DNA of 64,000 nt. It comes from a virus. The position numbers and the translations under genes are program-made. This document shows positions 18,665-63,734 of this stretch, piece by piece (the first letter of the stretch is position 1; each line of letters starts with the position of its first letter). The stretch covers positions 27,724 through 91,723 of the IMG/VR virus record IMGVR_UViG_3300019742_000002. One strand, written 5' to 3'. Below the pieces are notes generated by a model. That model was given only the letters and a program-made list of their open reading frames with translations. It was not told the DNA's origin and did not search any database.

Positions 18665-20458
18665 CTATAGAAGAGCTACCTTGGTGTATATAAATCTATC
18701 AAGAGTCATAAAACCTTTGAGTAACTGTAAACTATAGATAGTATTTGTTATTAGTTTGATAAAGAGCATCTTTCTAATATTGTTCTTAAATCTTTTAACC
18801 CCTATCTTAATACCCTTTTTAATAGAGTGAATTAATTTAGCTCTTTTTCTTCTTTTAATAAACTCTTTTCTCTTTTTTTCTGATTCAAAATATTTAATAT
18901 AACTTCTAGTTTCAGAAAAATCTATTATTTGATTGTTTAATTTCAACATCTTTTGAATTTCTTTAATATCAGTTAATTCAAGTTTAGAAATTTCATTAAT
19001 AGGAATAAGAAGTCCATCATGTACATTTACTATATGTTCAATTTTAATTTTTTTAGTACCTAGGTATGCTTTAAGAGAATTCATAATTTTAGTTTCTTCT
19101 AACATAAACATTCTTGAAATATTTTCATATCCTAAATTTCTAGCTATAATATCTAATTCTTTCATTTCTGAATTAAAATCTTTATAAAAAGTTGAAAGTT
19201 TAAGTGCATCATGTACAGTTTTATCATCTTTTGTATTTCTATTAAAAGGAGTTAAATGTCTTCCAAATATAGCACTAAGATACTCCATTTTAAACATAGA
19301 CCTAAATTCAATCTTTTTGTTAGCTCCTTGTTTACCTCTAATATTATCAATTGTATCTACATTGGACTCAATAATCTTTTTTCTATTTTTTATATATTCA
19401 ATAAGACAAGGATAGTTAATAGGGTCTATATTATGGTTCTCAAAACAATTCTTTATTAATCTTGGTGCGGCATTTTCTAAATCAAATTCAATATAATCTC
19501 TAAATAATCCATTTCTTATTTTTTTAGGAATCTGATTTAAAATATCAAAAATTCTACCAGAAGATGTAAATGTTCTATTAAAATAAATATGTTCATCTAC
19601 TATATTTTTTCTTATTAATTTCATAGAATTAATATATCTTCTTCTTTGAGCTGGGTATCTCATATATCCTATATCATTATCTAATTCATCGAGAATCTCT
19701 AAGTAATTATTGGGTAATTTAAATTTTATAATATCTTTGTAATTTTCCTTAGGAACTTCTCTTGGAATATTTTTAGATTTAGATGTAGTTACATCATCAG
19801 AGAGTCTCATTATAACCATATCAATAGGTTTTAGAGGTTTTTGTTTAGAGGCTATATCATAAAACTCCTGATATTTGGCTAGAGAAATAGTACCATTTAG
19901 AACTTTTTTAAGAATAGTATCTACTTTTTGGACTTTTGAATATACTTGGTTACTGTTGTCATAAGGATTGTTTAAAAATTCATAAGAAGAACAACCTGAA
20001 CCATCAAAAGAATTACCTCTTCTTGTTTGATTAAGATAAAGGTTATAGAAATCTCTATATGATACAAAAGAAGATAGGGATTTTTTAAGGTAGGTATTAC
20101 TAAGAGCAAGGTCACCTGTTAATTCATGAACTGAATGAGCAGAAGAAAGTAGTTTAGAAATAGATTTTAGAACATTGATTGATAGGTTATATTTAATATA
20201 TTTTTTTGCACTTTTAAATTGAATCATATCTTGAACAATACTAGGATGTGGAACTATAGAGTAACTTCTTTTTTGTTTTTCTATATTAGTAAAGGTTTTA
20301 TCTGATTTAATTGCAGTATGAACTTGAATAATAGCCTCTTTTGGATTAAGGATATTTTTAATGTAGTAATAATCCTTGTGGATTGTAAGATATGTTAGGT
20401 CATAATTAAATGGATTGGTAAGTATATAATCTTTGAGGTTTTCTTTTTTAATTTTCAT
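18665..20458 (-). CDS. palm-domain nucleotide polymerase-like protein (family A-like)
   Basis: No close family was recognised, but three polymerase-like blocks occur in the right order. TSSGRIFD (residues 299-305) and IPKKIRNGLF precede IEFDLENAAPRL, where Asp326 would be motif A. KIEFRSMFKMEYLSAIFG (382-399) has the Lys and Gly spacing of motif B. NVHDGLLIP (His480-Asp481) matches the His-Asp of motif C in family A and T7-like enzymes. There is no visible exonuclease domain. The C-terminus is basic (EFIKRRKRAK) with a hydrophobic end. The expected role is template-directed nucleotide polymerisation; whether DNA or RNA is made is unknown. It is expressed from a TATAAATA promoter through a leader containing a long pseudoknot (20494-20566). 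Confidence 0.5.
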   Translation of the reverse strand: MKIKKENLKDYILTNPFNYDLTYLTIHKDYYYIKNILNPKEAIIQVHTAIKSDKTFTNIEKQKRSYSIVPHPSIVQDMIQFKSAKKYIKYNLSINVLKSISKLLSSAHSVHELTGDLALSNTYLKKSLSSFVSYRDFYNLYLNQTRRGNSFDGSGCSSYEFLNNPYDNSNQVYSKVQKVDTILKKVLNGTISLAKYQEFYDIASKQKPLKPIDMVIMRLSDDVTTSKSKNIPREVPKENYKDIIKFKLPNNYLEILDELDNDIGYMRYPAQRRRYINSMKLIRKNIVDEHIYFNRTFTSSGRIFDILNQIPKKIRNGLFRDYIEFDLENAAPRLIKNCFENHNIDPINYPCLIEYIKNRKKIIESNVDTIDNIRGKQGANKKIEFRSMFKMEYLSAIFGRHLTPFNRNTKDDKTVHDALKLSTFYKDFNSEMKELDIIARNLGYENISRMFMLEETKIMNSLKAYLGTKKIKIEHIVNVHDGLLIPINEISKLELTDIKEIQKMLKLNNQIIDFSETRSYIKYFESEKKRKEFIKRRKRAKLIHSIKKGIKIGVKRFKNNIRKMLFIKLITNTIYSLQLLKGFMTLDRFIYTKVALL

Positions 20459-20493
20459 CTAATTCTCCTTTTTTATTTAGTCAAAAGTAGAAT

Positions 20494-20566
20494 GCTGTCC
20501 TACTTCTTAAGAGAGTTCATATCAAGTGGTAGGACAGCAAAAGCACCTGTATATGAACTCTCTTAA
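20494..20566 (-). ncRNA. H-type pseudoknot in the leader of the polymerase-like gene
   Basis: GCTGTCCTAC (20494-20503) pairs perfectly with GTAGGACAGC (20529-20538). TTAAGAGAGTTCATAT (20507-20522) pairs perfectly with ATATGAACTCTCTTAA (20551-20566). The two stems of 10 and 16 bp interleave in the order a-b-a'-b', which is a pseudoknot, not two hairpins. On the minus strand the structure starts about 10 bases after TATAAATA and ends about 35 bases before the ATG at 20458. It is probably a regulatory leader or binding site for the encoded protein. Confidence 0.75.
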
Positions 20567-20577
20567 AGACTTTATGT

Positions 20578-20585
20578 TATTTATA
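20578..20585 (-). promoter_or_regulatory. T4-type late promoter TATAAATA
   Basis: Minus-strand TATAAATA. With the usual spacing, transcription would begin near 20572, just before the pseudoknot in front of the polymerase-like gene. Confidence 0.7.
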
Positions 20586-20596
20586 TATTTATTTCT

Positions 20597-20635
20597 AGTA
20601 AGATATTGGTTTATCTATATTACCAATATCTTACT
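20597..20635 (-). terminator. strong stem-loop (14-bp perfect stem)
   Basis: AGTAAGATATTGGT and ACCAATATCTTACT pair perfectly around an 11-base loop. It lies between the end of the 166-aa gene and the late promoter of the polymerase-like gene and probably stops readthrough. Confidence 0.6.
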
Positions 20636-20671
20636 ATTCTTATTCTCTATACCTTAGCAGAGAATAAGAAT
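20636..20671 (-). terminator. stem-loop overlapping the gene end (13-bp perfect stem)
   Basis: ATTCTTATTCTCT and AGAGAATAAGAAT pair perfectly around 10 bases, overlapping the stop of the 166-aa gene. With the next hairpin it forms a double terminator or RNA-stability element. Confidence 0.55.
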
Positions 20672-21147
20672 ACCATTTCGTCGCTGTTTTTTTTATAACT
20701 GTCAAAATTTGAGTTATTAAATATACTAGAACTACTAACATCTTTAAAAACTTGCTCCATTTCATCTTTAGAGATACTTTTAGTTGATATAGATATATGG
20801 AAATATATCTTTCCATTTTTATAATCAACTAACTTCATATCAAATTTATGTATGTCCATTTTATTTAAAGTATTATTCAAGTATCTAATATCTTTATTTA
20901 TCTTTATGGTTTTATCAAACTCTATATCTTTTGTTGTTATTAAGTCTTTAGAGGTTACTTTATCTATATTACCGTTTTTAATATAGATAACTCTAGCTTC
21001 TGTTGGAGATACAAATTTATCAAAAAAACCTATTTGACCGTCTACAGTTATAAATTTATCGTATACCTCAAATTCATTAAAATTACCTTTACCCTCATTT
21101 AAGCTCATTTTCACAAACTCACTAAATCTCATATTTATTTTTTTCAC
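20647..21147 (-). CDS. hypothetical, possibly processed virion protein, 166 aa
   Basis: The start is GTG at 21147 with AAGGAG five bases before it. The N-terminus RFSEFVKMSLNEGKG has an amphipathic 'F-x-E-F' helix followed by L-N-E-G. This layout is common among T4-like head-associated proteins whose propeptide is cut by the prohead protease after (L/I)-x-E. The rest is beta-rich and unassigned. A double hairpin follows the gene. A virion role is inferred, not shown. Confidence 0.6.
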   Translation of the reverse strand: MKKINMRFSEFVKMSLNEGKGNFNEFEVYDKFITVDGQIGFFDKFVSPTEARVIYIKNGNIDKVTSKDLITTKDIEFDKTIKINKDIRYLNNTLNKMDIHKFDMKLVDYKNGKIYFHISISTKSISKDEMEQVFKDVSSSSIFNNSNFDSYKKNSDEMVFLFSAKV

Positions 21148-21255
21148 CTTAACTCCTTATTTTATATTATAGCCTAAATCTATTTAAAAATAAACTAATC
21201 CGATAAAAGATTTTGATTTAATATCAATCTCTTTTTATTATTTATAAAATTATTT

Positions 21256-21417
21256 TTAATCTAAAATATAAAAATTAGTCCATATTAACCAAGATTTAAG
21301 TTTTTGTTGTTTACAAGCATAACAATATACACCTAAACCTTTTGAAGGATTTGGTATAATTTGGTTACACATTAAACATTCATTAAAAGTATATCCGTAA
21401 AATATAGATTTACTCAT
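21256..21417 (-). CDS. small zinc-ribbon-like protein, 53 aa
   Basis: A 53-residue frame starting at an ATGA overlap with the upstream gene. CLMC (residues 15-18) and CYAC (32-35) give two Cys pairs separated by 13 residues, as in a zinc ribbon, and a hydrophobic/Trp C-terminus follows. Function unknown; it may bind DNA or protein. Confidence 0.6.
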   Translation of the reverse strand: MSKSIFYGYTFNECLMCNQIIPNPSKGLGVYCYACKQQKLKSWLIWTNFYILD

Positions 21418-21686
21418 TTTTTATCTTCTTTATCACAATGTATTTCTAATATGGTGTCTTTTACACAAGTTACAATATCATATAATTCATTTATAGTTGA
21501 TTTTTTAGCATCATACATAAAAATCAAGGTAAATGGAAATATTATTAGTGTAGATACCATCACTAGGAAGGCTTTTGCTGATGTAGGTAAATTAAATCCT
21601 CCACTTACAAAACTCATCATCAAATATAATAAGGTTGTCAATAATAACCAAATTATAACATTTAAAACCAATCTCTTTTTTATCAT
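21414..21686 (-). CDS. two-helix membrane protein, 90 aa
   Basis: Hydrophobic segments at about residues 8-28 and 38-58 are followed by a charged cytoplasmic tail (ILEIHCDKEDKK). A small inner-membrane protein of unknown function, coupled to the zinc-ribbon gene by a 4-bp overlap. Confidence 0.65.
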   Translation of the reverse strand: MIKKRLVLNVIIWLLLTTLLYLMMSFVSGGFNLPTSAKAFLVMVSTLIIFPFTLIFMYDAKKSTINELYDIVTCVKDTILEIHCDKEDKK

Positions 21687-21697
21687 TTTATTCTCCT

Positions 21698-22042
21698 CTA
21701 ATATTGAAAATCACAGTTAATATCATATAGATAATCATTAAAATCCACTTTATACATACAATTCTCAGCTAGATACTCCAACATATCTTTAAATTTAGGG
21801 TCAATTATATAGGAGTCCTTGGTATCATATCTTTGAGATACAATAGCTATATTAGTTTCATTATATGATATAACTGCTACAAAATCGTGACCTTCACCAA
21901 AATCAAAATTCTTTATATCGTTTTCTAATTCAGCTAATAATTCTTCTCTTGTGAATATATAGTCTTCATACATTAAACCTCTGATTGTATCATTTCTACC
22001 TTGAAGATGGTAAAAGGCTTTTTCTTTTATTTCGAGTTTCAT
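21698..22042 (-). CDS. hypothetical protein, 114 aa
   Basis: Unknown acidic alpha/beta protein. It starts shortly after a 49-aa gene and is part of the leftward run from the promoter at 22227. No motif recognised. Confidence 0.6.
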   Translation of the reverse strand: MKLEIKEKAFYHLQGRNDTIRGLMYEDYIFTREELLAELENDIKNFDFGEGHDFVAVISYNETNIAIVSQRYDTKDSYIIDPKFKDMLEYLAENCMYKVDFNDYLYDINCDFQY

Positions 22043-22057
22043 TTATTAGTCCTTATA

Positions 22058-22207
22058 TTATCTACTAAGATATTTTATTATGGATTTTTCACATTCTAAC
22101 TCATCTTGTATAATTTTTAGTGTTTCTTTTGCTTGTATTTCCAATTCTAATAATTTTAGAATTCTTTTCTCTTTACTTGTGATTACATCTTTAATTTTAT
22201 CAGTCAT
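22058..22207 (-). CDS. small coiled-coil protein, 49 aa
   Basis: A 49-residue frame (MTDKIKDVITSKEKRILKLL then LELEIQAKETLKII) that is almost entirely a heptad-like charged helix. It has AAAAGGAT upstream of the ATG and the promoter box directly before. Probably a small oligomerising protein; function unknown. Confidence 0.55.
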   Translation of the reverse strand: MTDKIKDVITSKEKRILKLLELEIQAKETLKIIQDELECEKSIIKYLSR

Positions 22208-22226
22208 AATTTAATCCTTTTAATTT

Positions 22227-22248
22227 ATTATATACTAACTAACTTAAA
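22227..22248 (-). promoter_or_regulatory. TTTAAGTTAG / TATAAT promoter
   Basis: Minus-strand TTTAAGTTAGTTAGTA followed by TATAAT, 20-40 bp before the 49-aa gene; it overlaps the tail of the HD/kinase gene region. Confidence 0.65.
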
Positions 22249-22254
22249 TTCTAC

Positions 22255-23364: not shown

Positions 23365-23788
23365 TTGTTTCCTTTACAAACCCATAAGCCATACAACCAA
23401 ATCTAACATCTAAATCAATATCATCAATACCTTTAATACTCACCTTACCTGATATTGATGTCAATTTAGTTCCATTTGGTATAAAATTATATAAACTAAG
23501 AGGAATCACAACAAGTCTATTATCCCAATTACCAAATCCTAATTCATAAAGTTCTTCTTTTGAATATATAGAAAAATCAATTCCTTTAACTTGATTAGGT
23601 ATATTATTCATAGCTAATTTAAGCTCTTTTACACAAAAATCAGAACTCCAATTATATGCACAAATCTGTGCAGAAGTTCTTGATAAACTATCATTGTGTA
23701 ACCTAATAATATCTTTTATGGAAACCCTTTCAATTACAATATCGTATCCACTTTTAAACTCTCTTGTGTATATTTTTTTATTAATCAT
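23351..23788 (-). CDS. hypothetical protein, 145 aa
   Basis: Unknown protein that overlaps the HD/kinase gene by 14 bp, so the two are co-translated and may work together. It has a beta-rich C-terminal half (LTSISGKVSIKGIDDIDLDV) and a helix with RLHNDSLSRTSAQI near the N-terminus. No family recognised. Confidence 0.65.
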   Translation of the reverse strand: MINKKIYTREFKSGYDIVIERVSIKDIIRLHNDSLSRTSAQICAYNWSSDFCVKELKLAMNNIPNQVKGIDFSIYSKEELYELGFGNWDNRLVVIPLSLYNFIPNGTKLTSISGKVSIKGIDDIDLDVRFGCMAYGFVKETNVQK

Positions 23789-24078: not shown

Positions 24079-24100
24079 TTATTTAGTCATTTTTTTATTT

Positions 24101-34926: not shown

Positions 34927-35020
34927 ATCTATAAGTTTTAATTCATTAATATATAACTATAAAAAGATACTCTTCAATTAAACATAATAAATAATATCTA
35001 TAGTTTACAGTTGCTCAAAA

Positions 35021-35161
35021 GAGTATCTACGATTAAATATATTAATTTATAACTTTTAAAATTTTTTATTCTTTTCTTTATTATAAGAGTTTTTATTTAC
35101 AAATTTCACTTTTTATAAGTTTTTATTATATTTAAACTATTATATTCAATCGTAGATACTC
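35021..35161. repeat. MITE-like interspersed repeat, copy 2
   Basis: The ends are perfect inverted repeats: GAGTATCTACGATT at 35021 and AATCGTAGATACTC ending at 35161. The interior shares the CTTTATTATAAGAGTTTTTA block with the other copies. Confidence 0.8.
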
Positions 35162-35336
35162 TTTATAAATTTCATATAGTAATTCACTTTATCTACTATA
35201 GTCAATCAAAACAATACTTCAATATAAACTATGTACTATTTAATCATCCATAAACTACCTTTAAACCACTTTAAATAATATATCCTATACCTTACTATTA
35301 AAATCAATTAATAAAGCCTTAAAATACCCAATAAAA

Positions 35337-35463
35337 TCATCTATGATTAAAACTATAATAAAAACTTATAATAATCAAAATTTGTAAATAAAAACTCTTA
35401 TAATAAAGAAAAAGAATTAAAAATTTTAAAAGCTATAAATTAATATATTCAATCGTAGATACT
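35337..35463. repeat. MITE-like interspersed repeat, copy 3
   Basis: It runs from ATCATCTATGATTAAAACTA to AATCGTAGATAC in the same orientation as copies 1 and 5. It is about 175 bp from copy 2 in the same non-coding gap. Confidence 0.8.
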
Positions 35464-35522
35464 TTTTTATTTTAAATGATTAAGTAATTATATACTATAG
35501 ATATTAAATGATGATTATAGAT

Positions 35523-36192: not shown

Positions 36193-36969
36193 ATGTCTAT
36201 ACAAGATATAATTAACAATAAAACTACCTCAACATCTCCAACAAATTCTTACAGGGCTACTGTAGTTGATGTTGAAGACCCCGAGAAATTAGGAAGAGTT
36301 AAAGTAAGAATTGATGGAATACATTCTGACGATGTTAATATAGAACATTTACCTTGGTCTGAATGTTCAGCTAGTTTAGACGGTGCCGGACCTAATAATA
36401 AAGGTACTTCTAGTGTTCCTTTAAAAGACGCTAAAGTCAATATAACTCTTGATGAGGGTGATTGGAATAAACCTATAGTTCAATCAGCTTCCAATATAGC
36501 AAGTTCTTCTCAAACAGGTAAAGACCTAGATAAATCTCCTATAACTCTTGTAAAGGGTGCTAATAGAGACCAAGGAGTTCCATCAGGTCAGGGTAAAAGT
36601 TGGGATGAACCTAAAGATACTACAAAAGATTCTAAATATCCTAATAATACTGTAACAGAAACTTCATCAGGTCATATAATTCAACAAGATGATTCATCAG
36701 GAAATAGTAGATTAAATACTATGCACAAATCAGGAACATTTACAGAAATGGCTGATAATGGTGATTATTCTACTAAGGTTATTGGAGTTAAAAAAGAGAT
36801 AGTTCAGGGGGATAATTTTGTGTTAAATAAGAGTAATTATACAAATACTACACAAGGAAGTTCTGAAATAAAAATTGATGGGTCTTCTAAAAGAGTTATA
36901 AATGGTGGTGAAGAGGTGACGGCAGGTTCTTCATTTAAAGTAACTGCTGGTGTTATTTTTTTAAATTAA
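36193..36969 (+). CDS. 5: baseplate central spike protein (gp5-like, no lysozyme)
   Basis: The first ~100 residues form the OB-fold domain of T4 gp5/VgrG proteins: YRATVVDVEDPEKLGRVKVR (residues 22-41), then LPWSECSASLDGAG and LDEGDWNKPIV. The C-terminal ~90 residues (ETSSGHIIQQDDSSGNSRLN, then HKSGTFTEMADNGDYSTKVI) are the start of the triple-stranded beta-helix needle. At 258 aa it lacks the lysozyme domain of T4 gp5 (575 aa), so peptidoglycan digestion must be done by another protein. It is a trimeric cell-puncturing spike at the tail tip. Confidence 0.88.
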   Translation: MSIQDIINNKTTSTSPTNSYRATVVDVEDPEKLGRVKVRIDGIHSDDVNIEHLPWSECSASLDGAGPNNKGTSSVPLKDAKVNITLDEGDWNKPIVQSASNIASSSQTGKDLDKSPITLVKGANRDQGVPSGQGKSWDEPKDTTKDSKYPNNTVTETSSGHIIQQDDSSGNSRLNTMHKSGTFTEMADNGDYSTKVIGVKKEIVQGDNFVLNKSNYTNTTQGSSEIKIDGSSKRVINGGEEVTAGSSFKVTAGVIFLN

Positions 36970-36984
36970 TATATTTTTATAAAA

Positions 36985-37110
36985 AGTATCTACGATTGAA
37001 TATATTAATTTATAACTTTTAAAATTTTTAATTCTTTTCTTTATTATAAGAGTTTTTATTTATAAATTTCACTTTTTATAAGTTTTTATTATATTTTTAA
37101 TCTTAGATGG
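36985..37110. repeat. MITE-like interspersed repeat, copy 4
   Basis: Inverted orientation, from AGTATCTACGATTGAATATA to AATCTTAGATGG. Both flanks carry TTTTTATAAA, which could be a duplicated target site or a split late promoter. Confidence 0.75.
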
Positions 37111-41222: not shown

Positions 41223-41249
41223 TTATATTCCTTTATTTTAATATCTCTA

Positions 41250-41271
41250 ATTATACTCTTTTAAACTTAAA
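41250..41271 (-). promoter_or_regulatory. TTTAAGTTTA / TATAAT promoter
   Basis: Minus-strand TTTAAGTTTAAAAGAG then TATAAT, before the 80-aa gene. Nearly the same ~40-bp block recurs at 42147-42168. Confidence 0.7.
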
Positions 41272-41350
41272 ACTATCTAAAATATTTTTAAAGTTTTTAT
41301 TTTAAAAATATTATCTCTTTCTTTAAATGTAAGCCTTTTTCAAAACAGCA

Positions 41351-42118: not shown

Positions 42119-42146
42119 TTGTAAATCCTTTATTTTAATATCTCTA

Positions 42147-42168
42147 ATTATACTCTTTTAAACTTAAA
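42147..42168 (-). promoter_or_regulatory. TTTAAGTTTA / TATAAT promoter
   Basis: Minus-strand TTTAAGTTTAAAAGAG then TATAAT, upstream of the 89-aa gene; almost a copy of the promoter at 41250. Confidence 0.7.
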
Positions 42169-42181
42169 ACTATATTAAAAA

Positions 42182-42309
42182 TCATCTAAGATTAAAACTA
42201 TAATAAAAACTTATAAAAAGTGAAATTTCTAATTAAAAACTCTTATAATAAAGAAAAAGAATTAAAAATTTTAAAAGTTATAAATTATTATATTCTCATC
42301 GTAGATACT
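42182..42309. repeat. MITE-like interspersed repeat, copy 5
   Basis: From ATCATCTAAGATTAAAACTA to CATCGTAGATAC, between two leftward genes. The right terminus has one base changed in the AATCGTAGATAC motif. Confidence 0.8.
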
Positions 42310-45799: not shown

Positions 45800-45825
45800 T
45801 TTAAATCCTTTGTTTTAATATTCTA

Positions 45826-45846
45826 ATTATAGCTAATTAAACTTAA
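45826..45846 (-). promoter_or_regulatory. TTAAGTTTAA / TATAAT promoter
   Basis: Minus-strand TTAAGTTTAATTAGC then TATAAT. The same ~50-bp block recurs at 46414-46434. Confidence 0.7.
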
Positions 45847-45861
45847 TATAAGCTTAATTGT

Positions 45862-46011
45862 TTATAGTAATCCACCACTTTTCATTTCAAAAACTGATAC
45901 AGTTCCATATATACTATTAGCATACTCAATAATACCTTTAAGAGCTTTTTGTTTTGTAGTAAATGGTATATCTATAACTCTAATATCATTTAAATTATAT
46001 ACTACCTCTAT
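45862..46011 (-). pseudogene. 49-codon open frame without start
   Basis: The frame EVVYNLNDIRVIDIPFTTKQ continues KALKGIIEYANSIYGTVSVF to a stop at 45862 and has protein-like composition. Two TAA codons lie directly upstream and there is no ATG, GTG or TTG. An AGAGGT precedes it. Probably a gene that lost its start, or a truncated remnant. Confidence 0.35.
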
Positions 46012-46389: not shown

Positions 46390-46413
46390 CTAATCCTTTG
46401 TTTTAATATTCTA

Positions 46414-46434
46414 ATTATAGCTAATTAAACTTAA
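46414..46434 (-). promoter_or_regulatory. TTAAGTTTAA / TATAAT promoter
   Basis: Minus-strand TTAAGTTTAATTAGC then TATAAT. It lies between the reverse transcriptase stop and the 115-aa gene, a duplicate of the block at 45826. Confidence 0.7.
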
Positions 46435-46441
46435 TATAAGC

Positions 46442-47491
46442 TTAATTATTTGATTGATTTTTCCAATTTGTTAATCCACCTAAAGATGAGTTATTAGATT
46501 GATGTTTTGATGCTCGTATCTTTCTCATAATCTTTCTAGTAGCTTGTGTATTTTTATCTCCTACATTTATACCCAAGATTCTTCTAAATCCATACTTAGC
46601 ATATCGTATTCTAGTTTTAGATTTATTAATACTTAAGCCAAAATTATTAAATACATTTGATACTATTTCTATAAGATTATTAATATCTTCGTGGTTTTCG
46701 GTATTTGTGCTTAATTGAATATCATCAGCATAAATAGTCAATTTAAAACTTATATCTAAATCTTTATGATAATATACCAAAATAGGCACTAGAATATCTA
46801 AAATAGGCACAAGTGATATATTAGCTAACATAGGACTTGTAACAAATCCTTGGGCTGTTCTTTCATCATCTACTGTAAAACATTCATCAAAGTTTTTATA
46901 ATCTTTGATGGGTTTAAAAGCTTTATTATCTTTATGAATAGAATCAAAGAAGTTACTTATATCCATCATAATTGTACTTTTAAAACCTATATGTTCTTTG
47001 GCACAAGTAACTGGACTTTTATTTTTAAGAAAACCATGCAAAAGATTTTTATTAGGACTTTCAAGGTTATTGAAGTAAGTATATAGTTGTTTCAACATAC
47101 CTCTTTGAGTCTTTTTAAGTTCTTTTGATGGAATACATATAGTTCTAAATCCTTTTCTCTTCTTTGGTATTTTAGATTCTTTGTATTTTTTGGTTGGTGT
47201 TGGTTTTAAATTTGGTGAAATATCTTCAAATAAATCTTCATACTTAACTTCTTTACAATTTTTGAAGTTTTCTGCATTTATACTCCAATTAAAAAACCAA
47301 CTTTCTTTACATCCATCATCAAATATAAAACACCTATCACAAGGAATTTTTGAATGGTCGTAAGAACATCCCACAAATTCGCATAACCTTATATACTTCT
47401 CTTGTGTCCACTCACCATTACTATAAAAAGCAAGATTTCTAATCTCACCTTTACTATTTCTTAATTTTTCTAATTCTTCTTTTAAAGTCAT
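46442..47491 (-). CDS. retron-like reverse transcriptase with N-terminal module
   Basis: From the start at 47491 (matching the start of the related AAA+ gene) the 349-aa protein has an N-terminal ~88-residue module (MTLKEELEKLRNSKGEIRNL to VKYEDLFE), a linker, then a reverse transcriptase. RT blocks: RTICIPSKELKKTQRGML (RT1), LHGFLKNKSPVTCAKEH, MMDISNFFDSI (Asp177), AQGFVTSPMLANI (RT4), IYADDIQLS (YADD 254-257), GLSINKSKTRI (RT6) and FRRILGINVGD (RT7). CAKEH and ILG occupy the places of NAxxH and VTG in retron RTs. SP in RT4 argues against a diversity-generating RT. It follows an HNH gene by 1 bp. No adjacent msr-msd RNA is evident. Confidence 0.88.
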   Translation of the reverse strand: MTLKEELEKLRNSKGEIRNLAFYSNGEWTQEKYIRLCEFVGCSYDHSKIPCDRCFIFDDGCKESWFFNWSINAENFKNCKEVKYEDLFEDISPNLKPTPTKKYKESKIPKKRKGFRTICIPSKELKKTQRGMLKQLYTYFNNLESPNKNLLHGFLKNKSPVTCAKEHIGFKSTIMMDISNFFDSIHKDNKAFKPIKDYKNFDECFTVDDERTAQGFVTSPMLANISLVPILDILVPILVYYHKDLDISFKLTIYADDIQLSTNTENHEDINNLIEIVSNVFNNFGLSINKSKTRIRYAKYGFRRILGINVGDKNTQATRKIMRKIRASKHQSNNSSLGGLTNWKNQSNN

Positions 47492-47492: not shown

Positions 47493-48260
47493 CTATAATC
47501 CTTTATATTTCCATCTAAAACCATAAGCAGTATACTTATTAATATCCTTCAATGCTTTTGAAATCCCCACATAAGAGGAGGAAGGTAATTTCAATTCCTT
47601 TCCTGCTTCCGTCATATTTTTAAATTCGTTTAAAACCTCTAAAGAATCTTTATCAAGTTGTAGTATTTCTAACCCAACTCTCTTAGAATATGATTTTTTA
47701 GCCTCTATAAATCTAGTATTATGTAAATCATCGGTAACTTCATCCATAAATATAAAGAAATATTCCCCTACAGTCTTTTGTTTTGTATTTCCTCTAGCTA
47801 CACTAGATATATTAGCCCTATTTAAACCCAATACCCTAGATGCTTGGGAGGCACTAACATACGAATTTAGAAATTTTCCGGTATTGACACAATACTGGTT
47901 TAAAGGTTTAAGCTGTACTCCATATCCATCTTTTCTTGCTTGGTTACCATTTTCATTATTTTCTTTCCATGTCATTAGCTGTATATTGTCGAATGAGTAG
48001 TGTTTATTATTATCTAATCTGTCAAAAGACGGTCTTAAATTTTGCTCAAAACCTGAGTCCTTCCAGTTATTATAAAGTCTAATAAATAAATCACTATCTA
48101 AAAACGTAACTAGTAACTCATTAATTGTATAATCGGGTAGAGGGTGACCTCTTTGCATACTTTTCCTCTCTTGGGATTTAAATAAATCTTTTAGTAATCC
48201 CTCTGGTCTATATTTACCTATTCTTAAAATTAAATTCTCCAGCTTTTGTTCCCTATTCAT
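47493..48260 (-). CDS. HNH homing endonuclease with NUMOD modules
   Basis: The HNH-type core RPSFDRLDNNKHYSFDNIQL then MTWKENNENGN is typical of phage homing nucleases. It is followed by two DNA-binding NUMOD-like units (KFLNSYVSASQASRVLGLNR; LEVLNEFKNMTEAGKELKLP) and the usual ending YGFRWKY. The longer open frame starts inside the late promoter, so I use the internal ATG at 48260 with AAGAGGTG before it. It abuts the reverse transcriptase gene and may have mobilised it or landed beside it. Confidence 0.85.
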   Translation of the reverse strand: MNREQKLENLILRIGKYRPEGLLKDLFKSQERKSMQRGHPLPDYTINELLVTFLDSDLFIRLYNNWKDSGFEQNLRPSFDRLDNNKHYSFDNIQLMTWKENNENGNQARKDGYGVQLKPLNQYCVNTGKFLNSYVSASQASRVLGLNRANISSVARGNTKQKTVGEYFFIFMDEVTDDLHNTRFIEAKKSYSKRVGLEILQLDKDSLEVLNEFKNMTEAGKELKLPSSSYVGISKALKDINKYTAYGFRWKYKGL

Positions 48261-48277
48261 AATCACCTCTTTTATAT

Positions 48278-48285
48278 TATTTATA
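48278..48285 (-). promoter_or_regulatory. T4-type late promoter TATAAATA
   Basis: Minus-strand TATAAATA, 18 bp before the chosen HNH start; the downstream reverse transcriptase is probably co-transcribed from it. Confidence 0.7.
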
Positions 48286-48307
48286 TACATGGTTTATAAC
48301 ATAAATC

Positions 48308-49172: not shown

Positions 49173-51593
49173 TTATGAATTAAATATATCCATATCTTCA
49201 AAAAGCATATTATAATCATTCAACTCTTTAGATATAATCAAATTATCTACAATTCTCTCAACATCTCTAGGAGGTAAATCTTTAAATTTGACATTAGATT
49301 TAGTATTAACCAATTCCTTAGCTTCAAGAATATTATCTAATCCATATCTAATAGCTAGATGAGGTTCTTTAAGATTATAAATAACAACTTGAAACCTTGC
49401 TATGGTTGCTTTATCCATTGGACTTCTTGCATTATAATCCTCCGAATAAGTAAGAGTATTTGCTGTAGCAATTAACCTAAAATTAGAATGAACATTAACT
49501 AACTTATCAGGAAATTGTACTGTATCTTTTTTCAATCCATTTAATATTAATAGAGTATTAGGATTACAAGCATCTATTTCATCAAAGATATAAACTTTAC
49601 CATTTTCTACAGCGTCTCTAAGTAGAGGTGATTTATATTCAAGAGTAGTAAAGCTAAAGAAACCTTCTAAATCATCTTTAGTAATTTGAGCATTACCTTT
49701 TTCAATAACATACTCCATATTTTTATCTTTGGCATAATCTATTGCTAAATTTGTTTTACCACTTCCTGAATCACCTACTAACATTACCCATTCTTTTCTT
49801 TTAATTTTTAAAGGATGGTCTAACATTACCTTTACTTTTCTAAGAATTTCTTTATCTTTTGCCTCTAAATCTTGAATATCTATAGAATACTTTTTAGAAA
49901 TATTTGATAACTCATAGGAATATTCTAAAATATTTTCATTTTTCTTTTTAGCTGTTTTAAATTTAGTTTCAAAAGATTCCTTAGAATATATAGTATTATC
50001 TACCATAACATTACCACAAGAATAGTAAGTAGGTTCAATAATATAATCAGTTTTTCTGCCAAATATTCTAATAATTTCATCGTCTTTTATATTACTTGAT
50101 GTAGTTTTATAAGATTTCGAGTTAATTCTTATTACTATATCGGTATATATTTTATTATCTTTTAGGTATACAACTACATCACCTGTACTAATCTTATTCT
50201 TTTCATACACCAACCAACAATCTTCTTGATTCATAATAGATTTTTTAAATTCTTGAATAAGTCTAATATCATTTTCTGAAATAATCAAATCACCTTCATT
50301 AATTTTGTTGAGATTTTTCATCTTTGGTTTTGGGTTTTTCCAACTAGTTTGAATGATAGAAATTTTAAGTAAATTTTTGGAAGATTTTTGTTTGATTTCT
50401 TCTATGTCTAACGGAATGTCTTTAACTATATTACTAAGGTCATCTTCTTGGGTGTCTTTTGTGGTTTGTTTTGTGTTAAATATATCTTCATAAGCTACTT
50501 GTTTAAGGTTTGGGAAATTAGAATGGTGTTCTTGAATATTCCAACTAAAATATGTATTCCTATACTCACTATAGAATATCCACTTAATGCTTATATCTAA
50601 TCCTTTAGAAAACTCTACAGTTTTAGTAAATGTTAATATATTTTTATACTCACTATCCGTCCAATCTTCACCAGATTTCTTATAGAAAGCTAAATCTTTA
50701 ATTTTGCCATCTTTATCTCGTAACTCTTCTAACTCTTCTCTTAGTGAATTTGTAGTTGTCATATTTAATCCTTTTTCGTTTATTATGTCTTTTAGGTAGA
50801 AAATATTATAATTGTTTGCTATGTAACTTACATCTTTTGATGTAGTTCTTAATGTGTTATTTACTCCAATAAATATATATTTATTACTAAAATTATATTC
50901 CCATACGCTTTGACCACTAGACCACCTAAAACCATTCTCATCTAAAAGTTTTAAAATTATATTCTTATCTTCTTCATTATCCCAAGTTATACAAATTTTG
51001 TTATCTTTAGTCCAATTTAACAATTCTTTTTTAAGAGTATATGTATTTTGAGTAGGAACTAAAGGTTTTGGTTTCTTTGAGTACAGTTCTAGGAAATCTT
51101 TTGGTGTGATTAGTTTTGTATCTTCAAGAGGTATAGTATTAGTATTTAGTTTAGTTTCTATATTAAATGTTCTAAAATATTGAAATGATTTACTACCACT
51201 CCACCAATATACACCATTCCCAAAACAACATTCTTGAACCTCTTTGGATTCATTTTCGGTAAGATTTTCTAGTCTAAACTTTCTATCTTTTAATGGGATT
51301 ATGTTAATTTGTGATGATTCAAAAACATCTTCATATCTAACTTTTCTACAATTTTTGAAGTTATCATCACCTTTATTCCAATTATAAAACCAACCATGCT
51401 CTGAATTATTATCAAAGATATATTCTCCTTTACACAAATTTTCAGGTAAAAATCTACCCTTATCACCTATAAATTTATGTACCATTTTGATATTCTCATT
51501 AGTCCACTCACCATCACTATAAAAAGCAAGATTTCTAATCTCACCTTTACTATTTCTTAATTTTTCCAATTCTTCTTTTAAAGTCATATTCAA
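49173..51593 (-). CDS. AAA+ ATPase (MoxR/CobS-like) with duplicated N-terminal modules
   Basis: The C-terminal ~250 residues are an AAA+ domain: VMLVGDSGSGKTNLAI (Walker A ~615), VYIFDEIDACNP (Walker B ~668), LIATANTLT (sensor 1) and ARFQVVIYNL. Ahead of it lie two copies of the module shared with the reverse transcriptase (residues ~3-88 and ~280-375), separated by a region with two GVYWWSGS/GFRWSSGQ-like units. At residue 278 an ATG (50762) preceded by AAAAAGGATTAAAT remains. The protein is therefore probably a fusion of two tandem genes and may still yield a shorter 529-aa product. Its role may be remodelling a protein or nucleoprotein complex with the downstream 270-aa partner. Confidence 0.8.
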   Translation of the reverse strand: MNMTLKEELEKLRNSKGEIRNLAFYSDGEWTNENIKMVHKFIGDKGRFLPENLCKGEYIFDNNSEHGWFYNWNKGDDNFKNCRKVRYEDVFESSQINIIPLKDRKFRLENLTENESKEVQECCFGNGVYWWSGSKSFQYFRTFNIETKLNTNTIPLEDTKLITPKDFLELYSKKPKPLVPTQNTYTLKKELLNWTKDNKICITWDNEEDKNIILKLLDENGFRWSSGQSVWEYNFSNKYIFIGVNNTLRTTSKDVSYIANNYNIFYLKDIINEKGLNMTTTNSLREELEELRDKDGKIKDLAFYKKSGEDWTDSEYKNILTFTKTVEFSKGLDISIKWIFYSEYRNTYFSWNIQEHHSNFPNLKQVAYEDIFNTKQTTKDTQEDDLSNIVKDIPLDIEEIKQKSSKNLLKISIIQTSWKNPKPKMKNLNKINEGDLIISENDIRLIQEFKKSIMNQEDCWLVYEKNKISTGDVVVYLKDNKIYTDIVIRINSKSYKTTSSNIKDDEIIRIFGRKTDYIIEPTYYSCGNVMVDNTIYSKESFETKFKTAKKKNENILEYSYELSNISKKYSIDIQDLEAKDKEILRKVKVMLDHPLKIKRKEWVMLVGDSGSGKTNLAIDYAKDKNMEYVIEKGNAQITKDDLEGFFSFTTLEYKSPLLRDAVENGKVYIFDEIDACNPNTLLILNGLKKDTVQFPDKLVNVHSNFRLIATANTLTYSEDYNARSPMDKATIARFQVVIYNLKEPHLAIRYGLDNILEAKELVNTKSNVKFKDLPPRDVERIVDNLIISKELNDYNMLFEDMDIFNS

Positions 51594-52412: not shown

Positions 52413-52434
52413 ATTATAGCCATCTAAACTTAAA
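52413..52434 (-). promoter_or_regulatory. TTTAAGTTTA / TATAAT promoter
   Basis: Minus-strand TTTAAGTTTAGATGGC then TATAAT, upstream of the amber-interrupted small gene. Confidence 0.65.
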
Positions 52435-52445
52435 AATAAAATAAA

Positions 52446-52570
52446 AGTATCTACGATTGAATATAATAATTTATATTTTTTAAAATTTTTATTCTTTTCT
52501 TTATTATAAGAGTTTTTATTTACAAATTTCACTTTTTATAAGTTTTTGTTATACTTTTAATCTTAGATGG
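52446..52570. repeat. MITE-like interspersed repeat, copy 6
   Basis: Inverted orientation, from AGTATCTACGATTGAATATA to AATCTTAGATGG. The interval 52435-53085 carries copies 6 and 7 and repeat X2, and no gene that I can see. Confidence 0.8.
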
Positions 52571-52700
52571 TTTTGAATAAAAATGGTTATAATAGAGGAT
52601 GTAAGCTTATTTTAATTGATTTAATAGTATGTATATGGTATTAGATTTAAAGATGTTTAAATGTGTATTAAGGGTATTTAAAAGATATAGAAGTATATAA

Positions 52701-52841
52701 GAGTATCTACGATTGTAATATAATAGTTTAAATATAACAAAAACTTATAAAAAGTGAAATTTGTAAATAAAAACTCTTATAATAAAGAAAAAGAATAAAA
52801 ATTTTAAAAAATATAAATTATTATATTCAATCGTAGATACT
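52701..52841. repeat. MITE-like interspersed repeat, copy 7
   Basis: Begins GAGTATCTACGATTGTAATA and ends AATCGTAGATAC. As in copy 2, both termini are the TATCTACGATT type. Confidence 0.8.
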
Positions 52842-52887
52842 TTTATTTTATTTTAGAATTATACACAAATGAATTAAACTTATATGT

Positions 52888-59984: not shown

Positions 59985-60001
59985 TTATATACCTTTTAGT
60001 T

Positions 60002-60042
60002 TATTTATATCTTTAGAATTATAGCTAATGGATGTTTAAAAT
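60002..60042 (-). promoter_or_regulatory. RNR operon promoter region (TATAAT plus TATAAATA)
   Basis: Minus strand: TTTAAACATCCATTAGC then TATAAT (about 60018-60023), a diverged form of the leftward promoter, followed by TATAAATA at 60002-60009, 18 bp before the first ATG of the operon. Early and late transcription are both possible. Confidence 0.5.
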
Positions 60043-60055
60043 ATTTGGGATTTGG

Positions 60056-60170
60056 TAGGGAGTTTTGGGAAGTTTGTACCCTATCATAATTAACTAGGAC
60101 ACCGAGTTTTGTTAGGTGTGGTTTAATCAAGTCCATAAGGACTTGATTTTATTTCATAATTAACTCCCTA
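60056..60170. ncRNA. branched structured RNA candidate upstream of the RNR operon
   Basis: TAGGGAGTT (60056-60064) pairs with AACTCCCTA (60162-60170), closing a domain with hairpins GGG/CCC (~60068-60082), ACACC/GGTGT (~60100-60120) and AATCAAGTCC/GGACTTGATT (60125-60134 and 60139-60148, perfect). An outer ATAGCT/AGCTAT pair extends it. Two copies of AGTTAATTATGA (minus strand) flank the inner part. It lies between the 60223 gene and the RNR promoter; strand unproven. Confidence 0.45.
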
Positions 60171-60222
60171 AAAGAGCTATATTTCTTTATTAAGAACAAT
60201 TTTTCAACTTTCTTTGGTATAT

Positions 60223-60608
60223 TTATTCTCTCTCTAATACATTCTTAACTCTTTCTACATATTTCATAATACCTGGGTTTTGCCAAATTAAATCACTCAA
60301 AGAATGAGAATCTTCACTGGTTCTAATTTGTCTCTTATCACTTCTCAGTTTCTTTTTTATTTTATCTAATGTATTGTTTTTGATATATTTAAGTGGTAGT
60401 TCTATATCACCCATATTACTTTCAATTTCATCAATAAACATAATATAAAGTGTATCATCATCGACAGTTAATCTTACATCATAATCAAAACCATCTCCGT
60501 CTATATCTTCATACTCTTCAAATCTTGACAAATCAGGTTTGTCACCCTCATTTAAACCTAACTCTCTCTCTCCATAAACTCTCTAAAACCCTCATTTAAT
60601 TTTCTCAT
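60223..60608 (-). CDS. late acidic protein with frameshift in an AG microsatellite
   Basis: The only good start is ATG at 60608 (AGGAGATTAAAG upstream), giving MRKLNEGFREFMERE, then a stop. The run (AG)5 at about 60562-60572 causes this. With one AG fewer the frame reads on as ELGLNEGDKPDLSRFEEYED, then DIDGDGFDYDVRL, to the stop at 60223 (about 127 aa). The part from 60531 alone has no ribosome-binding site. L-N-E-G motifs near the start suggest a processed virion protein. Two tandem late promoters lie upstream. Whether this is phase variation, mutation or sequencing error is open. Confidence 0.6.
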
Positions 60609-60648
60609 CTTTAATCTCCTTAATTTTTAATTTCTTTAAATCTACCTA

Positions 60649-60670
60649 ATTATAGTCTAATAAACTTAAA
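60649..60670 (-). promoter_or_regulatory. TTTAAGTTTA / TATAAT promoter
   Basis: Minus-strand TTTAAGTTTATTAGAC then TATAAT, upstream of the 60223-60608 gene. Confidence 0.65.
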
Positions 60671-60750
60671 CTAACCTTAAATACAAAACCTTTTCTATTA
60701 TTTATAAACTTAAACTAACCTTAAATACAAAACCCTTTCTATTATTTATA
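60661..60750 (-). repeat. 44-bp tandem duplication carrying two late promoters
   Basis: The sequence TAAACTTAAACTAACCTTAA with ~24 following bases occurs twice in a row with one mismatch. Each copy contains minus-strand TATAAATA (60699-60706 and 60743-60750), so the promoter of the 60223-60608 gene has been duplicated. Confidence 0.75.
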
Positions 60751-60805
60751 AAACTTTTTATTCACTCTCCTCTAATTTTAAACAAATTTACCCTAAAATA
60801 AGATA

Positions 60806-60813
60806 TATAAATA
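60806..60813 (+). promoter_or_regulatory. T4-type late promoter TATAAATA
   Basis: Exact TATAAATA on the plus strand. Transcription would start near 60819, five bases before the pseudoknot in the primase-helicase leader. Confidence 0.7.
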
Positions 60814-60823
60814 TTAATGAGAT

Positions 60824-60965
60824 ATGAATAATTTGATTTGGCTTTCGTACGCCATCGTTATCTAAGTTTTATTAGGTCATTTAAAAGGAAGTAAAATCTC
60901 TTTTTAAGTGTACCGAAACCAAATCAAATTATTCATCATAATAAACTTAGATAACGAGAAGTACG
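60824..60965 (+). ncRNA. long H-type pseudoknot in the primase-helicase leader
   Basis: ATGAATAATTTGATTTGG (60824-60841) pairs perfectly, 18 bp, with 60919-60936. GTTATCTAAGTTT (60857-60869) pairs perfectly with 60943-60955, and CGTAC (60846-60850) with GTACG (60961-60965), forming a second helix of 13 plus 5 bp with an internal loop. The helices interleave (a-b-a'-b'). A weaker hairpin lies in the connecting loop. It ends about 65 bases before the ATG at 61032. The 423-bp gap 60609-61031 otherwise holds the promoters listed. Confidence 0.78.
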
Positions 60966-61031
60966 AACACCTCATCTAAAGTTTATTAACTCACATAAAT
61001 CCTATTAAAAGGAATAAAGAGGTAAATAAAA

Positions 61032-63734
61032 ATGTTAGAAGTTACTTTTGGACTAAATGTCAAAAATAGAGGCTTATATAATAGAGCAAGATTTAAAGAT
61101 TTTGGTACTTTTGTATATAAATTAGAAGACCAAAGAAATGATGTTATTAGTACAAGTGCCAATAAAGAGAGAAATAATTGGATAAGTTCTGAAATAACCG
61201 ATGGAGATTTTAAACAAGAAAACTACATAAGAAATGGTGGATTTTTAATTCTTGATATAGATGATGGATTAACTATTCAAGAATCTTTAGAAATTCTTAA
61301 AAATGAAAACTTTCAACACTACATAACAAATTCTACAAATCATGGGAAAGATTCTAAAGATAGATTTAGAATTATGATACCATTAGAAGACCCCAAAGAA
61401 ATTAAAAACCTAGATGAACTAAAAGATACCTTATATTGTATTCATCTTATATTCAATGAAAAGCTTGATAAAAGTTGTTTACACGGTTGTAGACCTTTCT
61501 ATAAACCCGAAAATTGGTTACCATCAATTGACAATCCTAATGCTAAAAATATATCTATTATTGGTTTAGATGGTATAAGTATTAATTCAATAGATTTAAG
61601 AGAAAGATTTAAAGATGAATTAATAACCAAAAAGAAAAATGATATATTAATTCATAAAGAAAATAAAAAAGCCTATAGAAATTTATTAGGAACTGTTAAT
61701 ATAGATAATTGTGAAATCAATCAAGAAGCTAAGGTATATTTTTCTGAAAAATTAGTAAATAAATTTGACTCTCAACATATAAAAGCTAGATATAATAAAT
61801 TACTTAAATTGGCAGTTGATTTATTTAAATTAGGATGTAATGAAAATGATATGGTTCATTTTATGGGTAAATCTAATTATTTTAAAAAGCATACTGATAG
61901 AACACCATTAAGTTATGTGAAAGATGCCTTGGAAATATTTGAAAAAGACAATAGAATGATATTAAATAAAGTAACTAATGATTATAAAGAAGAATTAGAT
62001 ACAAGATTAGAAAATGAGAGATTTAAAGGTGATATAGATTATTATTTGAAAGATGGTGAGAAATTATCGGAGTTGGTGCAATTTAAGAATAATGATATAT
62101 TCAAAAAAGAGGGTGTAAACCTTTTAGATTCACCTACGAATTCAGGTAAAACATATTATGTTCTAAATGAATATAAAGATAGAATAGGTGATGATGAATT
62201 TGTAGTTTTAACAGTTCCTTATTTAAATTTAAGAGATGAATTAGAGAGTTATAATACATACATTTATAGAGCTGGTGAAGATTTTGATATGGAAAAGGCT
62301 AAAAAATATAAAAGTGTAGTATGTGTTTATGATTCAGCTATTAGAGTATTTAATGAATTAGCTTCAAGAAAATGTCATATATTTATAGATGAGGCTCATA
62401 ATTTTTATTCAGCATTCTCATATAGATATAGAGTTCTTAATGAAATTTTTATGTATTGTATAAGAGTACAAAGTCAAATTAAATTAGTTCTTATGTCAGG
62501 GACTTTTGATAATTCAGTTTTTGATGATAATTTTATAACAAATACAATAACTATAAGAAACTCTAAAGAATCTACACCTAAAAAGTTAAAAATAATTGAC
62601 ACCAATAGTCCACAAGAGGATACTATAAAAGATGTCACTAATATACCAAATTCTAAAAAGACAATAGTATTTATTAATGATAAGTATAGAGGTAAGGAAA
62701 TCCAAAAAAGATTAAATGCTAATGGAAAACATTCACTATTCTACAATAAAGAAACTAAATCAAATAAGGATATTAGATATTTAATAGAAAATAATAAGTT
62801 ACCTGATAATATAGATACTTTGATTATGACTCAAAGTGGTTTAGAGGGAATTTCTATATTGGATGATATAGAAACAATACATATTTTAGGATTTTTAAGT
62901 ACACACGAAATAGAACAATTAGGTAATAGACCTAGAAATAATAAAGCAAATGTAAAAATGTATTTAGATATTAATCCTAATTTTAAAAATCTTAAGAAGA
63001 CGGATTATGAAAAGGAAAATAAAGAACTTATGATTATGAGTGAATATATAGTACAAGGATTAAATAAAAATATAGTTAGTTATAATGAAAATGACGAAAG
63101 AATGGTTAAAAATATATGCCAAAATGATGTAACTAATGAATATGAAATGACACCTCTATTAATGGCTTCATATAAATGTGAGGATTCAAAAGATATTGAA
63201 AGGTTCAATTTAAATGATTTTTATTTTTCTAAGAAGATTAAAATGTTATACAATTGGGATACTGAATTTATATATTCTAAAACAGAACATAAAGATACAA
63301 TAAATATAACAAGAGAGATGAGAAAAGAAGAGAATATAAGAAGATTTAAACACGAGGATTCAAATTTAGTTAAAAAGATTAGAAGAATGATAGAAATGGA
63401 ATTATTGAAAGAACAAAATGTATATGATATGATTGATGTTTGTCCTAATGATAAGGATGTTTTTGAATTGATTTTAAAGAGATATACTAATAATAAAACG
63501 GCAGAAGATATATTTATTATAGGTCAATTTACAAAAGGTGAAAGATATACAAATAAAGATATAAAATTTAAATATAATGAATTTAATCAATATAGAAATG
63601 AATTTACTATAAAAGGTAGAAAGAAAATGATAGGTTTTAATAATTATAAAAGAATGATTAGAGCTTTGGTTGAGGTTAAGGATATGAAAGTAACTATAGA
63701 TGATAAAAGATGTTTGGTTATTGAAATTGTTTAA
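61032..63734 (+). CDS. AEP primase-polymerase fused to SF2 helicase
   Basis: The N-terminal part resembles archaeo-eukaryotic primase (PrimPol) domains: FLILDIDD (Asp75, Asp77) is the metal-binding strand and ITNSTNHGKDSKDRFRIMIP (99-118) supplies the conserved His and Arg. The C-terminal half is an SF2 helicase: SPTNSGKT (~367-374, Walker A), IFIDEAHNF (DEAH ~453-456), VLMSGTF (motif III) and EQLGNRPRN (motif VI). The combination is typical of self-contained replication initiators in plasmids, satellites and phages. It is 900 aa, complete. A late promoter and a 140-nt pseudoknot leader precede it. AAAGAGG before the ATG is the ribosome-binding site. A double hairpin terminator follows. Confidence 0.8.
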   Translation: MLEVTFGLNVKNRGLYNRARFKDFGTFVYKLEDQRNDVISTSANKERNNWISSEITDGDFKQENYIRNGGFLILDIDDGLTIQESLEILKNENFQHYITNSTNHGKDSKDRFRIMIPLEDPKEIKNLDELKDTLYCIHLIFNEKLDKSCLHGCRPFYKPENWLPSIDNPNAKNISIIGLDGISINSIDLRERFKDELITKKKNDILIHKENKKAYRNLLGTVNIDNCEINQEAKVYFSEKLVNKFDSQHIKARYNKLLKLAVDLFKLGCNENDMVHFMGKSNYFKKHTDRTPLSYVKDALEIFEKDNRMILNKVTNDYKEELDTRLENERFKGDIDYYLKDGEKLSELVQFKNNDIFKKEGVNLLDSPTNSGKTYYVLNEYKDRIGDDEFVVLTVPYLNLRDELESYNTYIYRAGEDFDMEKAKKYKSVVCVYDSAIRVFNELASRKCHIFIDEAHNFYSAFSYRYRVLNEIFMYCIRVQSQIKLVLMSGTFDNSVFDDNFITNTITIRNSKESTPKKLKIIDTNSPQEDTIKDVTNIPNSKKTIVFINDKYRGKEIQKRLNANGKHSLFYNKETKSNKDIRYLIENNKLPDNIDTLIMTQSGLEGISILDDIETIHILGFLSTHEIEQLGNRPRNNKANVKMYLDINPNFKNLKKTDYEKENKELMIMSEYIVQGLNKNIVSYNENDERMVKNICQNDVTNEYEMTPLLMASYKCEDSKDIERFNLNDFYFSKKIKMLYNWDTEFIYSKTEHKDTINITREMRKEENIRRFKHEDSNLVKKIRRMIEMELLKEQNVYDMIDVCPNDKDVFELILKRYTNNKTAEDIFIIGQFTKGERYTNKDIKFKYNEFNQYRNEFTIKGRKKMIGFNNYKRMIRALVEVKDMKVTIDDKRCLVIEIV

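Follow-up and report, generated by a model that had tools for sequence, protein, structure and literature searches.

The question raised by the viral DNA analyzed here is why two of its genes share an elaborate 5′ leader. The window, a stretch of 64,000 nucleotides, comprises bases 27,724-91,723 of the 91,723-bp viral record IMGVR_UViG_3300019742_000002. This contig carries genes of the T4 type, encoding a gp23-like capsid protein, a sigma factor, topoisomerase II, an SbcD-like nuclease and ribonucleotide reductase; the groups closest to the capsid protein are those of Vibrio phages Va1/pv27 and Campylobacter phage CP21, at about 38-42% identity. Gene A (protein P0001, 597 aa; 18665-20458, minus strand) and gene B (protein P0002, 900 aa; 61032-63734, plus strand) are each preceded by the late-type promoter element TATAAATA and by two interleaved inverted repeats. 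An earlier sequence-only reading had seen here a late promoter and a pseudoknot ahead of genes for a palm polymerase-like protein and a primase-helicase, and had proposed either a common control scheme or a late accessory replication system separate from the T4-type replisome. We consider it probable, at roughly two chances in three, that both are members of a family of structured 5′ leaders which T4-like phages of this group use mainly ahead of free-standing homing endonuclease genes (HEGs), and that they combine a portable promoter with a two-state RNA switch for translation. The leader appears to control the expression of selfish genes, as an element not described before, and not to be a signal of replication enzymes.

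At locus A, on the minus strand, TATAAATA (20585-20578) ends 11 nt before a perfect 16-bp stem 1 (P1), formed by the 5′ arm TTAAGAGAGTTCATAT (20566-20551) and a 3′ arm at 20522-20507. A perfect 11-bp stem 2 (P2) is interleaved with it, its 5′ arm TGCTGTCCTAC (20539-20529) lying within the P1 loop and its 3′ arm, P2b (20503-20493), 3 nt past the 3′ arm of P1. An anti-Shine-Dalgarno sequence (anti-SD), CUACUUUU (20483-20490), the Shine-Dalgarno sequence (SD) AAGGAG (20465-20470) and the ATG at 20458 follow. This anti-SD can pair with the SD, with the 5′ part of P2b, and in part with AAAGU (20569-20573), a candidate for the strand termed P0a near the predicted 5′ end. At locus B, on the plus strand, TATAAATA (60806-60813) ends 10 nt before a perfect 18-bp P1 (5′ arm ATGAATAATTTGATTTGG, 60824-60841; 3′ arm, 60919-60936), interleaved with a perfect 15-bp P2 (5′ arm TCGTTATCTAAGTTT, 60855-60869; 3′ arm, 60943-60957). 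P2 is extended by CGTAC (60846-60850), the partner of GTACG (60961-60965). The anti-SD ACCUCAU (60969-60975), the SD AAAGAGGU (61016-61023) and the ATG at 61032 complete the leader, and a P0a candidate, AUGAG (60817-60821), is complementary to the CUCAU of the anti-SD. The arrangement described for both genes, TATAAATA and then interleaved stems, is confirmed. By itself TATAAATA is uninformative, with 52 occurrences against 41 expected, which is near chance. The stems are not: in an unbiased search of the whole contig for interleaved repeats, loci A and B provided the two top-ranked pairs, with weaker-arm scores of 28 and 34, respectively, against a maximum of 23 across 100 dinucleotide shuffles.

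That the window holds only two such leaders was also right, a third copy being present on the contig just beyond the window edge (contig 21135-21211). It has a TATAAT promoter and sits between the capsid gene and a 257-aa open reading frame (ORF; contig 21245-22018) coding for a homing endonuclease. The leader is intact; the ORF seems truncated, because its counterpart in the related locus L009 has 550 aa. Related T4-like loci were gathered through the capsid protein, whole records being used where possible, and about 2.0 Mb of such contigs were scanned with a strict descriptor of interleaved stems, which excluded locus B because its loop L2 is too long. The 25 strand-wise matches of the scan reduce to about 16 distinct elements; three shuffles of the whole set had no match. 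Degenerate patterns from the conserved patches (AAGAGAU ... CUCU ... CCUCUURU), used in a two-box search of viral contigs, yielded more leaders, likewise 5′ of endonuclease genes. Apart from genes A and B, the only full-length exceptions, every downstream ORF long enough to be classified is a homing or HNH endonuclease gene, in a tally that leaves out the ORF of L276. The families matched are phrog_3339, 559, 655, 314, 12434 and 681, NUMOD3, T5orf172 and DUF7487; several nuclease classes are represented, GIY-YIG and HNH among them, so the leader is not confined to a single protein family. The supposed link to enzyme type therefore fails: looked for ahead of other genes, the structure does occur, almost always before HEGs. 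The idea of a common and apparently undescribed control scheme fared better, since the two loci agree in promoter spacing, in the interleaved stems of the leader and in the anti-SD that precedes the SD, and since other T4-like contigs have related leaders.

The 81.7-kb viral contig IMGVR_UViG_3300033146_003395 (loci L058, L093, L096, L189, L228 and L276) carries at least four leaders, which suggests repeated acquisition of the cassette. No match came from leader scans of the cultured Vibrio phage pv27, of Campylobacter phages CP21 and CP81 and of 32 kb of Aeromonas phage 25; comparison of leader DNA with cultured phages returned short AT-rich matches only. A pattern scan of bacterial genomes found a single, non-conforming match. 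Rfam contained no covariance model matching at gathering score, its other matches being at chance level. Openly accessible papers describe hairpins at the ribosome-binding site (RBS) of HEGs and a pseudoknot in the leader of gene 32; a conserved interleaved leader was not found in them.

Neither P0001 nor P0002 contains a detectable nuclease domain, and gene A is connected to the HEG leaders through a relative. In locus L012, a leader with TATAAATA (3929-4001) sits 5′ of a 731-aa ORF (L012:4038-6233) that joins a P0001-like N-terminal part to an HNH homing endonuclease C-terminal part. P0001 matches this ORF with a blastp E-value of 4e-8 in pairwise comparison, and it ranks first of 9,582 ORFs at 7e-5. 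Judged by this similarity, the L012 leader with its fusion ORF is the bridge between gene A and the HEG leaders. A distant relative, L145:614-2341, came second both for P0001 (E 0.18) and for the L012 ORF (E 0.19). The three proteins have in common the motifs GR...P..R..LF....E.D and HD, similar in appearance to polymerase motifs A and C. Assignment of P0001 to family A DNA polymerases or T7-like RNA polymerases was not supported by hhalign comparison with the T7/SP6 DNA and RNA polymerases. That gene A encodes a palm polymerase is therefore a hypothesis at the level of motifs, drawn from those shared with the two relatives. Both detectable relatives of P0001 have a long inverted-repeat leader. 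In L145 (1-20000, minus strand; about 17.2-17.7 kb when reverse-complemented), the P0001-like ORF is preceded by a perfect inverted repeat of 36 bp and by three direct repeats of 44 bp that contain TATAAATA; nrdA of the same record is in two parts, separated by about 0.9 kb.

For gene B, the description as a primase-helicase is supported by sequence similarity. The N-terminus of P0002 aligns over 136 aa with an N4 gp43-like AEP primase (pairwise blastp E 5e-8), including the LDID-type DxD, H and FRIxxPL motifs, and was found weakly in a database search (E 0.09). Its middle part, an SF2-type helicase domain, resembles the helicase-like region of a Chryseobacterium jumbo-phage protein. No useful relative of either protein came from searches of Pfam, PHROGs and PDB or from peptide patterns. 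In tblastn searches of 50,697 phage records, P0001 had no match and P0002 weak primase or helicase matches only; a genome search of 39 related records found relatives of neither. Single-sequence AlphaFold models were unusable, with mean predicted local distance difference test scores (pLDDT) of 35 for P0001 and 34 for P0002. An empty-site comparison for gene A met flanking genes almost without relatives among the collected loci.

These genes bear directly on the proposal that the leaders mark an accessory polymerase and primase system under replication-specific control, apart from the T4 replisome. The proposal draws on the window's only two leaders fronting a polymerase-like and a primase-helicase gene, and on the repeats with TATAAATA and the 36-bp inverted repeat just upstream of the L145 relative. 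However, leaders outside the window, the contig's third copy included, front HEGs of several families, the P0001-like domain itself is found fused to an HNH homing endonuclease, and relatives of P0001 and P0002 were found together in no record. The association with HEGs largely refutes such control, and we regard the accessory system as not supported and very improbable. The likeliest reading is that gene A, and possibly gene B, are unusual members of the selfish gene set. On this reading gene A uses the same leader cassette, and gene B probably does too. Somewhat speculatively, the portable RNA-switch cassette may also carry new mobile genes, namely those of the palm-polymerase-like protein, free-standing here and HNH-fused in a relative, and of the primase-helicase; through DNA synthesis during homing, both may favor their own copying.

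The common type of leader reads, from 5′ to 3′, AYAAGAG (P0a), AU, the P1 5′ arm, CUCUU (L1), the P2 5′ arm, the P1 3′ arm, the P2 3′ arm, CCUCUURU (P0b, the anti-SD), the SD and AUG. Across the family, stem 1 has 13-24 bp and stem 2 has 8-12 bp, P1 being the longer. Leaders A and B follow this layout, with interleaved P1 and P2, a longer P1 and a position ahead of the start codon. Leader B has AUGAGAU ahead of P1, to be compared with AAGAGAU, and its anti-SD ACCUCAU compares with CACCUCUUGU. TATAAATA is present in 17 of 27 leaders, its end lying 10-17 nt 5′ of P1. Eight of the ten without it carry TATAAT 9-18 nt before P1, one of these (in L014) being read as a slightly longer AT run. The late promoter described for A and B is thus frequent in the family, but the leader is not strictly tied to it. 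In both A and B the spacing falls in the range expected for a -10 element 10-20 nt before P1. Considering the usual distance from promoter to start site, P0a is taken as the 5′ end of the transcript, and the leader would begin at the predicted start.

The stems have been maintained through extensive sequence change. Pairing of P1 reaches 94% in a MAFFT alignment of 14 leaders, 15 of its 16 pairs showing changes on both sides, and pairing of P0 reaches 96%. The covariation in this alignment is 0.444, against 0.180 ± 0.018 for shuffled controls and at most 0.14 for slid partners. P2 varies in length and was misaligned by MAFFT; over 26 leaders there are 26 distinct P1 and 24 distinct P2 arms, each leader having its own exact P2 complement. 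This variability bears on whether the repeats act as DNA, as recombination, cleavage or protein-binding sites for movement of the cassette. Leaders that travel with different types of mobile genes would suit such a role, DNA recognition sites often contain long perfect inverted repeats, and deviations of the G-U and A-C kinds are about equally frequent. Yet the arms differ in nearly every copy, leaving no constant recognition sequence, and the fixed place between the predicted transcription start and the SD, the invariable sense orientation and the complementarity to the SD point to RNA. A DNA-level element is accordingly held to be improbable.

As RNA, the leader would not form a classical H-type pseudoknot, in which the stems coexist and loop 3 spans stem 1. 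The 3′ arms of P1 and P2 are separated by 0-5 nt in most relatives and by 10-18 nt in a few; the linker is 3 nt for the 16-bp P1 of A and about 6 nt for the 18 bp of B. By helix-geometry reasoning, with no 3D calculation, a 16-bp duplex spans about 45 Å, which 3 nt are unable to bridge. Complete P1 and complete P2 are therefore impossible in one molecule when the linker is of 0-5 nt, and formation of P2 requires the opening of about half of the 13-24 bp of P1. The interleaved repeats of the supposed pseudoknot are real, but in A and most relatives the two stems cannot coexist in full.

Exclusive pairings extend to the SD. Each of the 15 relatives examined has an SD hairpin that exceeds those of shuffled tails in stability (p at most 0.053), and in these P0b can also form 7-12 bp with the 5′ end. 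L1 is in most cases another complement of P0a. The computed energies of P1 with P0 and of P2 with the SD hairpin are of similar size. Conserved pairings, linker limits and energies fit a bistable translational switch. The promoter, either the late TATAAATA or the sigma70-like TATAAT, would be positioned so that transcription starts at or beside the leader. Pairing of P0b with the 5′ end would leave the SD free, and its pairing with the SD would mask it, the two being mutually exclusive; P0a would alternate between P0b and L1, a short loop resembling the anti-SD. P1, transcribed first, would favor the open state, and P2, by breaking the base of P1, would favor masking of the SD. New transcripts should begin in the P1 state, as P1 is complete before P2b is transcribed. 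We infer the switching, its direction and timing, and any trigger for it; its effect would be to limit the amount or the timing of a potentially damaging nuclease or nucleic-acid enzyme. Translational on/off leaders with an anti-SD and an anti-anti-SD exist, both riboswitch-like and in the kinetic leader of the MS2 A-protein mRNA. The leaders described here are alike in that mutually exclusive pairings would set access to the SD, and differ in matching no Rfam family.

A simpler account is a plain RBS-sequestering leader of the I-TevI/mobE type, in which only the SD hairpin matters and P1 and P2 insulate the message or stabilize its 5′ end. In I-TevI, mobE and segB, where RBS hairpins with late promoters are established, the hairpin masks the SD in long transcripts, and late-promoter transcripts lose its 5′ arm (PMC2988022, PMC3014915). 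The present leaders resemble those of I-TevI, I-TevII, I-TevIII, Aeh1 mobE and T4 segB in being cis-acting leader RNAs of HEGs, with a late promoter nearby and a maskable SD (PMC2988022, PMC3014915); they would serve a like purpose, controlling a homing gene close to its SD. SD hairpins are predicted in the relatives, more weakly in A, and the leaders probably begin at the transcript 5′ end, where a stable structure could block 5′-dependent decay. In phage 25, seg43, a free-standing GIY-YIG gene, has a very stable hairpin directly 5′ of an RBS that is left unsequestered (PMC2988022, PMC3014915); unlike the leaders here, this is a short hairpin between 43A and seg43, and the searched 32-kb stretch of phage 25 contains no interleaved element. 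Closer to I-TevI is a subtype (L012 146-229 and L014, and with more spacing L012 9727 and L016) with TATAAATA inside the P1 3′ arm or at its end. Against the simpler account, P1 and P2 complementarity is kept through many changes, in an order and spacing common to unrelated HEG families, beyond the needs of an insulator or cap. In addition, the promoter is mostly 5′ of the entire structure, as in A and B, where it is upstream of both stems and not inside a hairpin, so late transcripts keep the full fold. The present leaders also differ from the I-TevI, mobE and segB hairpins in their two long interleaved stems, in a 5′-terminal strand competing for the anti-SD, in being conserved across several HEG families, and in their use by a polymerase-like and a primase-helicase gene. 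We therefore judge it rather unlikely that the SD hairpin alone matters.

Several observations weigh against a two-state switch common to HEGs and to genes A and B. The SD hairpin of locus A is weak (p 0.083), and its P0a candidate pairs with the anti-SD over 5 bp only, which is not significant alone (p 0.26). Locus B has a clear SD:anti-SD pairing (ACCUC/GAGGU, p 0.003 for the fold of the tail), but its 5′-end pairing is likewise of 5 bp, spotted by inspection, and it is atypical in its long L2 with an internal hairpin and its two-part P2. The logic of the switch is therefore best supported in the relatives. With so short a 5′-end pairing, control of the SD may be different in A and B; that of gene A, for example, may depend on P2b. 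Gene B, which has no full-length relative in the collections searched, is placed in the family by its leader layout, and no homing-type domain or HEG-linked relative was found for it. Downstream ORFs are truncated, unmatched or broken in L093, L014, L016, L229 and L356 (2167-3021). The collection of elements was partly guided by sequence. Complementarity of P2 is not an independent test, P2 having been built into the definition of the scan, though shuffles gave none. Finally, the counts of G-U and A-C deviations, 5 and 4, do not decide between function as RNA and as DNA.

A structured leader could also be an autogenous operator bound by the encoded protein, as with T4 gp32 and gp43, whose operators are a 5′ pseudoknot and a hairpin, respectively (PMC3014915), and the proteins encoded behind the present leaders do bind nucleic acids. 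The gene 32 pseudoknot is similarly a 5′ leader structure upstream of the RBS in a T4-type phage mRNA. It consists, however, of short coexisting stems and is specific to gp32, whereas the long stems described here cannot both be complete and precede genes for unrelated proteins, none of which is a single-stranded DNA-binding protein. One architecture with conserved sequence patches fronts GIY-YIG, HNH and other proteins that have no common domain, which makes a shared protein-specific operator unlikely; the chance of autogenous control is considered very slight.

Other repeats were observed in the window. A dispersed noncoding family of about 130 nt, with the core TTCAATCGTAGATACTTTTTATAAA, has copies on both strands at 2549-2697, 35018-35174, 35333-35477, 36966-37108, 42173-42295, 52433-52585 and 52697-52855; in each of two coding gaps, near 35.0-35.5 kb and near 52.4-52.9 kb, a pair of copies faces one another and makes up a large inverted repeat. 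Downstream of gene B, a 102-bp tandem repeat of 1.9 copies (63806-64000) reaches the contig end and is found nowhere else in the contig. The ORF at 46442-47524 matches polymerase family phrog_2825 and reverse transcriptase family phrog_1423. It overlaps an ORF for an HNH endonuclease (47493-48290), and parts of its sequence close to the 5′ end have duplicates in the ORF at 49173-51593. A recurrent upstream motif on the minus strand, TTAAGTTTAA...TATAATTAGA (17558-17625, 41229-41296, 42126-42193, 45804-45863, 46392-46451 and others), is probably an early or middle phage promoter.

Homing endonuclease genes, intron-encoded ones included, make up about 11% of T4 (PMC2988022), and their expression has so far been worked out gene by gene. 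If the present interpretation is true, a leader common to unrelated nuclease families would mean that selfish genes share a regulatory RNA. The leader would also be a sequence marker for new classes of mobile phage genes, as which it led here to the polymerase-like/HNH fusion, and a candidate for a natural RNA switch built on two long stems that exclude each other.
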